NCBI GenBank assembly: GCA_946537565.1
Contig: CAMNFW010000063.1
Location: 1-10,035, forward strand
DNA length: 10,035 nt
Origin: an uncultured Ruminococcus sp.
GTDB taxonomy: Bacteria; Bacillota; Clostridia; Oscillospirales; Ruminococcaceae
Reading direction: 5' to 3'
Shown: one piece after another, positions 2,726-5,243 of the stretch
How the letters are laid out: the number at the start of each line of letters is the position of its first letter
How positions within the stretch are numbered: position 1 is the first letter of the stretch
Made by a program: the position numbers and the translations under genes
Notes under the pieces: generated by a model
Databases searched by the model: none
Told to the model about the DNA's origin: nothing
The model's input: only the letters and a program-made list of their open reading frames with translations

Positions 2726-3568
2726 TCAGGGCATCTCAGGCAGCTCAGTAATAACCTTAGCATCCAGTTTCTGGATAGCAAGAGCATCCTTAGCTGTAAC
2801 GCCGTCGCCTGGGTTATAGCAGTCGCCGTTGATAAGAGCCTGACCCTCAAGACCGTATTTGTCTACAAGAGCTACGTGCTGGAGAATAGCAACAGCATCA
2901 GCAACTGTAACCTTACCATCGAGGTTAGCGTCACCGAGCAGACCTGTTGGTGTAACACTGCTGCCGCTGTCCTTGATAGTTACTCCGCCGTTCTTGACAT
3001 CAACAGAGTACTTAACAGCAACACCGTTCTGCATATAGCCGCAGTCGATCTCGGTGTTAGCGTCACCTGTCTTCGGAACTACCTCACGATCTGTAGCAAC
3101 GACCTTTATATCAGCCGTTGTTCCGGGCGCAGCGCTTTCAGAAACTGTACCTGATACTGTACAGAAAACTCCCTCGCCCTTCAGCCAGTAAGTAGAATCA
3201 TCAAGAGATGTTGACCACATCAGGCTGATAAGACCCTCATTTTCTGTGTAGCTGTTGAAATTAGGAAGCATAGAAGCTGTAGAATCAGCTCCGGATGCAC
3301 CTGTTTCAGTAAGCTTACCAGGTGTAACTGAGGTTATTGAGAGAATGCTTGCATCAAACTCCAGAGAGAAATTTAAACCCTGTATACCTGTGGCAGGAAT
3401 ATCAGCGAGCGACACCTCCACCGTAAACTGTTCACCTGGGTTAGCCTCCGCCTGGCTGACGGATATCTGCACTGTTTCGCCAGCAGCAACAACAGGAGCA
3501 ACCGAGCAAACTGAAAGTGAAAGCATCGCAGCAGCCATTGCTCCGACGACTATCTTTTTTGTCTTCAT
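2726..3568 (-). CDS. scaC: ScaC-like adaptor scaffoldin (one cohesin plus one dockerin)
   Basis: This secreted 280-residue protein has the size and layout of R. flavefaciens ScaC. The in-frame codon at 3613 is not the likely start: a strong GGAGG at 3576-3580 sits 7 bases before the ATG at 3566-3568. Residues 1-29 are a signal peptide ending VVAA. A typical cohesin covers about 31-200 (SQAEANPGEQFTVEVSL, GIQGLNFSLEFD, a LKGEGVF segment). The dockerin covers about 211-277: loop 1 has D213, N215, D217, T221 and D224, and loop 2 has the ruminococcal pattern GDCYNPGDGVTAKDALAIQ. In R. flavefaciens, ScaC docks on ScaA and offers a cohesin of different specificity, widening the set of enzymes carried. 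This cohesin shows no clear resemblance to the ScaA/ScaB modules, as expected for an adaptor. It is the first gene of the scaffoldin operon. The cohesin-dockerin call is secure; the ortholog name rests on layout and order. Confidence 0.82.
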   Translation of the reverse strand: MKTKKIVVGAMAAAMLSLSVCSVAPVVAAGETVQISVSQAEANPGEQFTVEVSLADIPATGIQGLNFSLEFDASILSITSVTPGKLTETGASGADSTASMLPNFNSYTENEGLISLMWSTSLDDSTYWLKGEGVFCTVSGTVSESAAPGTTADIKVVATDREVVPKTGDANTEIDCGYMQNGVAVKYSVDVKNGGVTIKDSGSSVTPTGLLGDANLDGKVTVADAVAILQHVALVDKYGLEGQALINGDCYNPGDGVTAKDALAIQKLDAKVITELPEMP

Positions 3569-3622
3569 GTTTTTTCCTCCTTCTTCATTAATGTTATATA
3601 ACAACGGAACCAAAGCCCCCTT

Positions 3623-3631
3623 ATTATATCA
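3623..3631 (-). promoter_or_regulatory. Proximal promoter of the scaffoldin operon (extended -10)
   Basis: The minus strand reads TGATATAAT here, an extended -10 (TG-n-TATAAT). The -35 position about 17 bases upstream (near 3646-3651) is only CTGCAA, so the extended -10 would carry recognition. Predicted transcription starts near 3616, about 47 bases before the scaC ATG. Confidence 0.6.
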
Positions 3632-3646
3632 TGTCTTAAAATATTT

Positions 3647-3779
3647 TGCAGCACTCATCAGCTGCACACCTGACTAACTGCATCATGAACAAACATTGTT
3701 ACATTAACAGGCGAGCGGTGCCTGCTCATGCAGTGGTTAAATTAAGACACATCACACTGCCGTGATGGATTCTCAATCC
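3647..3779 (-). ncRNA. Candidate structured RNA or leader upstream of scaC (unassigned)
   Basis: Between two possible promoters lies a run of perfect inverted repeats that nest properly. The stem ACTGCAT 3677-3683 with ATGCAGT 3728-3734 encloses two hairpins, AACAA/TTGTT (3688-3700) and CAGGC/GCCTG (3708-3724), giving a three-way junction. On one side are CATCAC/GTGATG (3750-3767) and GGATT/AATCC (3767-3779); on the other is TGCAGC/GCTGCA (3647-3666). On the minus strand the last hairpin is followed by AAATATTTT, a weak terminator-like tail. I do not recognise a known riboswitch class. The strand is inferred from the scaC direction; the pairs themselves fit either strand. Confidence 0.4.
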
Positions 3780-3805
3780 CAAAATCTATATTTATTCATG
3801 ATTTT

Positions 3806-3834
3806 ATTATATATCAGGTCTCGAAAAAAGTAAA
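3806..3834 (-). promoter_or_regulatory. Possible distal promoter upstream of scaC
   Basis: The minus strand has TTTACT (3829-3834), a 17-base spacer, then TATAAT (3806-3811). A start near 3799 would give a scaC leader of about 230 bases containing the hairpins at 3647-3779. The region is AT-rich, so a chance match is possible. Confidence 0.4.
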
Positions 3835-3887
3835 TAGCTTTATGGTGTTTTTGGTATTTTATCTAAACATGGAATATATTTTTTGCA

Positions 3888-3931
3888 CGCTTTGCACAAC
3901 ACCAAAATCCATAAAAAAGGGTTGCAAAGCG
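3888..3931. repeat. 9-bp inverted repeat after the capA-like gene
   Basis: CGCTTTGCA (3888-3896) pairs with TGCAAAGCG (3923-3931); with a two-base bulge the stem adds two more pairs. A TTTGCAC direct repeat sits at 3882-3888 and 3891-3897. It lies 30 to 75 bases beyond the capA-like stop, where a terminator is expected, but no T-run follows on the minus strand, so it is not a standard terminator. Confidence 0.5.
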
Positions 3932-3962
3932 GTTGTTCTTAATTAGATGTGAATTTATTAAT

Positions 3963-5243
3963 TTATTTGTCGAGTTTTTGGAATTCTTTAGGAATACTCT
4001 CGTCAATTATCTGATTCAGAATGTCCCAGCTGAAGGAAGTATATGTTCCCTGCGGGACCGCATAAGGAATACCATGTACTGCTGCAAGCTCAGGAGTATA
4101 TTTGCTGTAGGGGTAGACTCCCAGATTGCTGAAATCTCCAACCTCATAATGGATTATATTAGGTATAGCCCCTACATCTTCAAGGGTTATTTCTCCGGTA
4201 TCGCCGTGGAGAACGATATCGAAGTCGGGCATTTCGCCCACAAGGTTAAAGTTATCGGTCTGACAGCATATGAAATTTCCCATAGAGTAGAAGACAAATC
4301 CCTTTGTTCCATCGTCACGCTCTATCCATTCCATAGTTTCAGCGGTATGGGTATGGCAGCCGAGTATAACATCTGCGCCCCAGTTCACCATTTTATTTGC
4401 AAGCTCGATCCTGTCCTCAGATACAAGATGTGTATCCTCAACACCCCAGTGTGCTGATACGACAACTGCATCTGCTATTTTGTCAGCTTCCTCGATCTGG
4501 CGCTGGATAACGTCTTCCTCATAGTTCATGATAACTCTCAGAGAAGAATCATCAGGTATCGAAAATCCGTTTATATGTTCAGCGTAAGCCAGGAATGCGA
4601 TCTTGACGCCGTTGACATCACGCACTCTTATGTTATTGGCATCTTCCTCGTTAAGGTAAGCGCCTAGTACGGTGAGATCATACTCCTTAGCCTTCTGGTT
4701 CCAGAAGTTTATTGACTCTTCCAAAGCCGAAGCACCAAAGTCCAGCAGATGATTGTTAGCCATTGTAACAACGTCGAAGCCCATATCGATTACGGCATCT
4801 GCCACCTCCGGCGGAGAATTGAACAGCAGGGCGCCGCCGTTTGCACCTCTGATCTCATTGCTGGGTGATATTATCGTTTCCTGATTGATTATAGCGAGAT
4901 CAGCTTCCTCAATAAGATACTTAACGTGTTGATAGAGAGGCTTGAAATCAAAATTTTCGCCGGGACCAGCAAGCTTCTCTGCATTTTTATATACAGAATA
5001 ATGTATCAGGTTATCACCGACAGCAGTAACGTGAACTGTCTTATCCGCCGGAACAGGCACAGTTGTTGGTTCAGTGGTGTTCTCTTCTTCCGGTTCCGTT
5101 TCATTTTCAGCAGGAGCAGCACTGGGTGCTTCATTTTTATTTCCTGCTGATCCCACTACTTTTGAAGTACAGCTTGCAACAGTTGTGATCAGCACAGCCA
5201 ATACAGCTATGGCAGCGGCAGCACGGCCTTTTCTTAATTTCAT
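3963..5243 (-). CDS. CapA-family (PGA_cap) metallophosphatase-like lipoprotein
   Basis: This 426-residue protein begins with a lipoprotein signal peptide: the VASC lipobox puts the lipidated Cys at residue 25. A low-complexity Glu/Pro/Thr stretch follows to about 66, a likely spacer from the membrane. Residues 69 to about 340 carry the CapA/PGA_cap motifs: AVGDNLIH (D77, N78), NQET (E122), MANNHLLDFG (N163, N164, H165, D168), SAHWGVED (H265, E269) and GCHTHTAETMEW (H297, H299), then YSMGNF. These residues form a calcineurin-like metal site. Family members are linked to poly-gamma-glutamate or surface polymer metabolism, but no capB or capC lies nearby, so the substrate is unknown. GGGAG (5252-5256) precedes the ATG. 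It is preceded by its own promoter and followed by 394 bases before scaC, so it is probably monocistronic. Confidence 0.88.
   Translation of the reverse strand: MKLRKGRAAAAIAVLAVLITTVASCTSKVVGSAGNKNEAPSAAPAENETEPEEENTTEPTTVPVPADKTVHVTAVGDNLIHYSVYKNAEKLAGPGENFDFKPLYQHVKYLIEEADLAIINQETIISPSNEIRGANGGALLFNSPPEVADAVIDMGFDVVTMANNHLLDFGASALEESINFWNQKAKEYDLTVLGAYLNEEDANNIRVRDVNGVKIAFLAYAEHINGFSIPDDSSLRVIMNYEEDVIQRQIEEADKIADAVVVSAHWGVEDTHLVSEDRIELANKMVNWGADVILGCHTHTAETMEWIERDDGTKGFVFYSMGNFICCQTDNFNLVGEMPDFDIVLHGDTGEITLEDVGAIPNIIHYEVGDFSNLGVYPYSKYTPELAAVHGIPYAVPQGTYTSFSWDILNQIIDESIPKEFQKLDK

Follow-up and report, generated by a model that had tools for sequence, protein, structure and literature searches.

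The locus upstream of the scaC-type gene

The window, a stretch of 10,035 nucleotides from an uncultured Ruminococcus sp. (contig CAMNFW010000063.1), contains a 394-base gap on whose two sides lie a PGA_cap gene (3963-5243, minus strand) and a scaC-type cohesin gene (2726-3568, minus strand). The element described here is in this gap. The ORF next to scaC (963-2609) showed no Pfam match, and the ORF after it (2-907) has a cohesin match below the Pfam cut-off. The scaC-type gene would be the head of a scaC-scaA-scaB operon, by analogy with other strains.

A sequence-only reading of the window had listed six inverted repeats in a 133-base stretch (3647-3779), the complementary segments GCAGTG and CACTGC, and a TATAAT at 3806-3811, and all of them were found. 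The repeats are assigned to the minus strand, within the predicted 5′ leader (about 3800-3569) of the scaC-type gene. The minus-strand signals around them are the promoter P1, followed by the Shine-Dalgarno (SD) sequence and the start codon of scaC. The 133-base stretch itself showed a folding z of -1.52 on the minus strand (9/200 shuffles as good) and -2.67 on the plus strand (3/200). Both strands are moderately better than shuffles, and thus folding energy alone does not choose the strand. From 5′ to 3′, the leader consists of the P1 promoter, a conserved 5′ domain, a hypervariable middle, a conserved hairpin and the SD. The features, all on the minus strand, are as follows.

3880..3899, minus: conserved upstream site TTGTGCAAAGCGTGCAAAAA with the direct repeat GTGCAAA, a possible activator site; TTGTGC[AG] is there in 93/100 loci
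3806..3834, minus: promoter P1, TTTACT-17 bases-TATAAT; sigma-70-like scan, 10 of 12 matches; conserved
3788..3802, minus: 5′ strand of the 5′-end helix (state A), AUCAUGAAUAAAUAU; 15/15 pairs with 3682-3696, two of them G-U; swap test 0/2000
3767..3779, minus: hairpin A (GGATT/AATCC); swap test 1/2000 (44 representatives) and pair counts
3750..3767, minus: hairpin B, CATCAC-GGCAGT-GTGATG, with a conserved loop; pattern match in 94/99 loci, swap test 7/2000
3742..3749, minus: 5′ strand of the long-range helix LR (state B), UGUCUUAA; 8/8 pairs with 3632-3639, swap test 0/2000, scan rank 2/558
3728..3734, minus: 5′ strand of the inner helix (state B), ACUGCAU, containing a possible partner of the hairpin B loop; z 4.4 at the homologous place
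3682..3696, minus: 3′ strand of the 5′-end helix (state A), AUGUUUGUUCAUGAU; pairing and swap test
3677..3683, minus: 3′ strand of the inner helix (state B), AUGCAGU; pairing and constrained folding
3647..3666, minus: terminal small hairpin (SL1-like), at the same place but of unlike sequence in relatives; scan rank 1/558, z 9.4
3630..3646, minus: A+U-rich linker between the terminal hairpin and hpT; more often unpaired than the leader mean in predicted ensembles
3632..3639, minus: 3′ strand of LR, UUAAGACA, within the linker that separates the terminal hairpin from hpT, a proposed processing site; pattern, swap test and scan
3596..3629, minus: A+U-bottomed hairpin hpT, AUAUAAUAAGGGGGC/GUUCCGUUGUUAUAU, with one mismatch, containing a second TATAAT; 99.2% of cells paired in 44 distinct rows
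3576..3581, minus: Shine-Dalgarno AGGAGG; invariant in alignment A2
2726..3568, minus: scaC-type gene; cohesin at residues 33-156 (Pfam Cohesin, 5.4e-15)

The TATAAT at 3806-3811 had been taken as a possible promoter element, and the TTTACT 17 bases upstream and the conservation of the box agree with that assignment. P1 is the sole sigma-70-like match on the minus strand within 3500-3962. TATTTAC and TATAAT of P1 are invariant in 45 aligned loci (alignments A1 and A2 contain 45 loci each, and A2 corresponds to 44 distinct rows). The P1 pattern TTTACTTTTTN{9,12}TATATAAT has a single occurrence in the genome. The leader is predicted to be transcribed from P1.

The DNA upstream of P1 is also conserved (3840-3899). 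It includes TTGTGCAAANNGTGCAAAAA and TAAAATACCAAAAA, the first with one exact copy in the genome, and is possibly an activator site. The genome-wide search with the upstream site TTGTGCAAAGCGTGCAAAAA returned one exact match only; the other four hits have three mismatches, and the reversed control gave three hits. In most loci the upstream ORF ends ~62-65 bases before this site despite the variable sequence between them (3899-3963). Two other candidates were rejected. The search for other genomic targets of the TTATATA-SD arrangement found one further hit, in a coding context. Nor is there a conserved short ORF for a leader-peptide attenuator: the candidate start, the ATG at 3799, reads AAG in L032-L037, and the frame is disrupted by single-base gaps in relatives.

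Distribution of the leader and loss of its 5′ domain

The DNA search with 3569-3830 found matches in 103 of the 125 genomes of the genus (best E ≤ 2.9e-10), and the other 22 gave E values above 2e-4. Some of the matches are confined to a single block. The element is present once in the window's own genome and twice in G076. The 104 loci examined correspond to 100 unique loci after four identical to others were dropped; the matching genomes G003, G035, G091, G099 and G115 are outside these 100 (G035 and G099 were covered by the search, and the other three were inspected). The six named records among the loci are Ruminococcus flavefaciens or Ruminococcus sp. MAGs. In 100/100 unique loci, with L103 partly masked, the next ORF starts with MK[TA][KN][KR] and has 248-302 codons.

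There are two conserved blocks, one at about 3899-3727 and the other from about 3640 into the scaC gene. The middle is variable in both sequence and length, and in 99 loci the two TATAAT boxes stand 138-333 bases apart; L057, whose second TATAAT is not exact, is excluded from the 99-locus counts. The second block extends into the coding sequence. Synonymous sites are nearly frozen across the genus in scaC codons 2-7 (3548-3568; 99 loci) and in the stretch ACAGTGCAGAT (3465-3475). Valine in these patches is encoded by GTG in 98/98 loci, while GTG accounts for 13% of valine codons in these genes. For comparison, at 85 conserved codons beyond codon 7 the median share of the commonest codon is 0.60 (98/100 loci used). 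Neither patch has a steadily placed pairing partner in the leader. The published scaC PCR primer ScaFwd, AGACARGRTATAATHAAAGGGGC, maps to the linker plus the left hpT arm, within the second conserved block (PMC3197198). The conservation of that stretch was therefore in effect already known; the text available from that source assigns it no structure or function (PMC3197198).

All 22 genomes of the genus without a match below 1e-9 match the query protein somewhere, many in the dockerin part alone. Among them, G087 turned out to have the element, and G114 has a weak hit of model R2 (0.005). Six others (G029, G040, G062, G090, G103 and G110) encode a near full-length scaC-like protein, 40-44% identical, and have no R2 match at E ≤ 0.01. 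The four of these six that were inspected have other leaders. Thus, the element does not follow every scaC-like gene.

Model R1, which represents the promoter and the 5′ domain, matched 8/8 genomes of the genus and 0/388 others at E < 0.05 in a family sample of 396. Weak R1 matches (E 0.05-0.1) are seen in three other genomes, and that in G383 lies ~250 bases before a scaC-like gene. Model R2 hit 38 genomes of other genera at E ≤ 0.1, five of them directly before a scaC-like gene (G240, G315, G362, G371 and G463).

The 5′ domain has been lost in a few loci. Five of the 99 loci (L094, L101, L103, L104 and L105) lack hairpin B and the 5′ domain, and are outside the 94-locus tests below. All five also lack the AAGRC-like 3′ strand of LR, which is kept in 86 of the 94 others; the pattern for this strand was written after the variants had been seen. 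Judged by eye, L184 and L185 fit the same co-loss of the 5′ domain and the LR strand. All seven domain-less loci keep the terminal hairpin (five by the shuffle test, L184 and L185 by eye). In L185 the P1 promoter, the small hairpin and hpT are retained (by eye), and so the smallest unit seen is the small hairpin, the linker and hpT. Two of the domain-less loci, L101 and L104, have a TTGAC..TATAAT promoter close to scaC and are the only two of the 99 loci matching this pattern. L184 also has a gene-proximal promoter of this type, as do many scaC-like genes of other genera (both by eye). The three loci with a gene-proximal promoter lack the putative switch described below, and L094, L103, L105 and L185 lack both as far as seen. 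From these comparisons, the 5′ domain looks like a genus-specific addition able to pair with the linker.

Pairing and alternative folds

The proposal of a structured leader before the scaffoldin genes holds up, with a z of -4.15 for the whole predicted leader (3569-3800, minus strand; 0/200 shuffles as good) and its conservation in relatives. For the leader down to the second TATAAT in 44 dissimilar loci, including the window, the mean z is -2.78, with values below -2 in 31/44 and below 0 in 43/44.

Each helix was examined with a swap test, in which its own arms are compared with arms exchanged between loci in 2000 permutations. The sample was 44 of the 94 loci, chosen as representatives with dissimilar middles, although relatedness is not wholly removed. 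The permutations as good as the real arms numbered 0 for LR, 0 for the 5′-end helix, 0 for the terminal hairpin, 1 for hairpin A and 7 for hairpin B. They were 647 for GGCAGU/ACUGC and 754 for hpT, both of which hardly vary. A hypothesis-free scan of 558 pairs of sub-windows, which does not cover the 5′-end helix, had a mean z of 0.02 and an sd of 1.2; nine pairs exceeded 3 and one fell below -3. The terminal hairpin ranked first (z 9.4), LR second (4.8) and the inner helix, AAACC/GGTTT in relatives, fourth (4.4). Hairpins B and A reached z 2.9 and 2.8, and one unrelated pair reached -4.8. By pair counts, 91.5% of the cells of hairpins A and B are paired (7/500 shuffles as high), and their covariation score was equalled in 21/500.

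The other pairings were examined locus by locus. The best 5′-end pairing (11-17 pairs) is unmatched by any of 200 shuffles in 30/94 loci, and P ≤ 0.05 is seen in 39/94. The terminal hairpin has P ≤ 0.05 in 63/99 loci (60 shuffles each). In L188 the LR strands are GTCTTC/GAAGAC, a two-sided change; LR is broken or shifted in several loci. The loop-closing pair of hairpin B occurs as C-G, U-G and U-A. In hpT, no two-sided change was found within the genus in the 44 distinct rows. Across genera, upstream of scaC-like genes, its arms change together when compared by eye: AAAGGGAT/ATCTCTTT, AGGGAAT/ATTCCCT, AGGAAG/CTTCCT and AAGGCGG/CCGCTTT.

The expectation of conserved, covarying stems is borne out by the stem conservation and the swap tests. 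In the strictest test, however, an all-pairs covariation analysis against a tree-simulated null, no pair was significant (93 loci, L089 being left out as well; 8541 pairs; best E 8.2). Many columns are too conserved for this test, yet the result stands against a strong claim.

LR and the inner helix cross the 5′-end helix, and so a nested fold holds one or the other. In state A, the 5′ end of the transcript pairs with 3682-3696. In state B, LR and the inner helix form. Constrained folding of 37 loci/species gave a median difference (B minus A) of 2.9 kcal/mol, with A as the minimum in 24 and B in 4. In the window, state B is 8.6 kcal/mol weaker than state A. In unconstrained ensembles of the 94 loci, LR has a mean probability of 0.15 and exceeds 0.5 in 13%; the means for hairpin B and hpT are 0.38 and 0.92. 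The linker is predicted to be unpaired with a mean probability of 0.62, against 0.40 for the whole leader, and is above the leader mean in 83/99 loci. The SD is mostly unpaired in the predicted ensembles (mean paired 0.23). A candidate pairing of the SD with GUUCCUUU was rejected at a mean probability of 0.01.

These folds differ from the one first drawn. The sequence-only reading had missed the helix 3788-3802/3682-3696 (15 pairs, two G-T), the helix 3742-3749/3632-3639 (8 pairs) and the hairpin 3596-3629. Its three-way junction at 3677-3734 does not stand as drawn, since the hairpins 3688-3700 and 3708-3724 are species-specific and lie in the variable part. Its closing stem does lie where relatives have the helix AAACC../..GGTTT, but the conserved junction is larger and is closed by 3742-3749/3632-3639. 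The original junction thus corresponds to the variable inside of state B. The switch proposed between GCAGTG and CACTGC was right in that competing pairings exist; the segments themselves show no covariation (647/2000 swaps as good). The competing pair with covariation support is LR against the 5′-end helix. GCAGTG/CACTGC may act both as a competitor and as a pseudoknot. The loop GGCAGT of hairpin B can form at least five pairs with a downstream site in 82/94 loci, but only 20/94 beat shuffles (P ≤ 0.05). The possible partner lies 12-16 positions into the searched region in 72/94.

Sequence comparison establishes the conservation of the leader, its linkage to scaC-type genes, its hairpins, and the two long-range helices with their exclusion of each other in a nested fold.

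Possible function of the leader

The leader belongs to no described RNA class as far as the searches covered. No Rfam 15 family reached its gathering score in the window or in the relatives searched (sets of 10 and 8 loci, 3 shared), in agreement with the earlier impression of an unclassified RNA. The nearest in anatomy is caiA RNA (RF02934), which shares the order hairpin, UUAUAUA, SD and AUG. Membership was rejected because the matches score 25.5-31.9 bits against a gathering score of 55.5 and span hpT to the start codon only. A literature search, covering mostly papers outside subscription journals, found no RNA described at this leader, and word searches of PMC8040213 and PMC12484212 were likewise negative. 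In the text available from PMC12484212, riboswitches appear only as engineering ideas.

The cip-cel IR4 region of Ruminiclostridium cellulolyticum offers a closer parallel. Experiments on IR4 showed a cut ahead of a hairpin whose bottom consists of AT pairs, with protection of the RNA downstream, and they showed that the cut position is set by a small hairpin lying still further upstream, through structure rather than sequence (PMC10311766). The scaC leader is like IR4 in its cellulosome operon, its structure-dependent small hairpin, its AT-bottomed hairpin and the gene downstream (PMC10311766). IR4 differs in being intergenic and experimentally demonstrated, and the available text reports no 5′ domain covering its cut site (PMC10311766). 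The part order small hairpin, linker and AT-bottomed hairpin is found in the scaC leader. From this order, and from a small hairpin that is conserved in shape while its letters change, we propose that the linker is the site of processing and hpT the protecting element.

Our best explanation, still a tentative one, is that the leader is a cis-acting element of scaC-scaA-scaB, transcribed from P1, with a 3′ processing and protection unit and a 5′ domain that opens or covers the linker. The 3′ unit would consist of the sequence-indifferent small hairpin (3647-3666), the A+U-rich linker (3630-3646) and the A+U-bottomed hairpin (3596-3629). An endoribonuclease would cut in the linker, leaving scaC mRNA with hpT at its new 5′ end, where the hairpin would protect it. 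In state A, with the transcript 5′ end paired to 3682-3696, the linker would be single-stranded. In state B, the strand 3742-3749 would cover the linker at 3632-3639 and the cut would be blocked. We infer the cleavage and its place, the protection, the occasion of each state and the signal from these likenesses and pairings. The signal is perhaps linked to growth on cellulose. In strain FD-1, scaA, scaB and scaC mRNA rise ~4.5-fold on cellulose relative to cellobiose (PMC2721979), and in strain 007C the substrate is described as without effect on the ScaC protein (PMC3672088).

The main alternative is a two-promoter region, in which the TATAAT at 3623-3628 is a real -10 box, scaC mRNA starts at hpT, the hairpin only stabilizes it, and the P1 leader is minor and separately regulated. 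The sequence-only reading had already placed a second promoter at 3623-3631. The box is conserved as such a promoter would require: it is exact in 99/100 loci while neighboring bases vary, although the locus finder required TATAAT (L057 is the exception, and L185, a further locus, also lacks it), and it is more conserved than the stem needs. Similarly built hairpins stand ahead of the rpsL and acpP SD in other genera (by eye), and Rfam caiA, at 25.5-31.9 bits here, has a like anatomy; both also fit a hairpin at an mRNA start. On the other side, no -35 element is conserved at -26 to -16. In its place stands a hairpin whose sequence differs from locus to locus, a pattern that DNA-level constraint does not readily explain. 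In another genus, the orthologs L162 and L163 read ATATAAG in place of TATAAT and yet retain hpT. We consider this alternative rather unlikely, and TATAAT within hpT may be promoter, stem or both. As a separate observation, hpT-like hairpins followed by an A+T-rich stretch and the SD are seen by eye in other genera, ahead of rpsL, acpP and genes probably encoding secreted proteins (L121, L126, L129 and L130; genes named from protein sequences only), and are perhaps a general 5′-end hairpin in the family.

Other explanations start from hairpin B and its loop. A ligand-binding riboswitch, with hairpins A and B and a GGCAGU-ACUGC pseudoknot as the aptamer and a state change acting on scaC translation, would account for the conserved loop, the possible pseudoknot partner in 72/94 loci and the two competing folds. 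It is quite unlikely, given that the loop pairing beats shuffles in only 20/94 loci, that R1 matches all 8 genomes of the genus in the family sample but 0 of the 388 others (E < 0.05), that the SD has a mean paired value of 0.23, and that no Rfam family matches at threshold. It is very unlikely that the leader serves as a platform at which an RNA-binding protein, or a small RNA acting in trans, recognizes hairpin B and its loop. The GGCAGU loop is conserved beyond the need of a loop, as such a site would be, but L098 has the loop GGTTGT. The ACTGC partner is missing from its leader and also from that of the related L055, where the loop is unchanged. The loop thus does not strictly follow its partner. 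The suggestion of a small RNA or an attenuator is not upheld, as no conserved terminator was seen. For an attenuator with an intrinsic terminator, three terminator-like sites were counted on the minus strand of the window against 0.2 expected; in the aligned relatives, however, the tail after the terminal hairpin mostly has no U-run by eye (e.g., TGCATTAAGACA in L015). The conserved hairpin with a U-run that marks an intrinsic terminator is not seen in the scaC leader, and this mechanism is extremely improbable.

The processing and protection model has a bolder version. Across the genus, the leader would act as an RNA switch whose two mutually exclusive long-range helices expose or mask an endonuclease site and so set the lifetime of scaffold mRNA, and it may have replaced an older gene-proximal promoter; we regard this as possible at a low level of confidence.

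Ruminococcus flavefaciens and its kin are major fiber degraders of the rumen, and their scaffoldin mRNAs rise on cellulose. The leader is a defined and testable cis element at the head of the scaffold gene set in about a hundred species.
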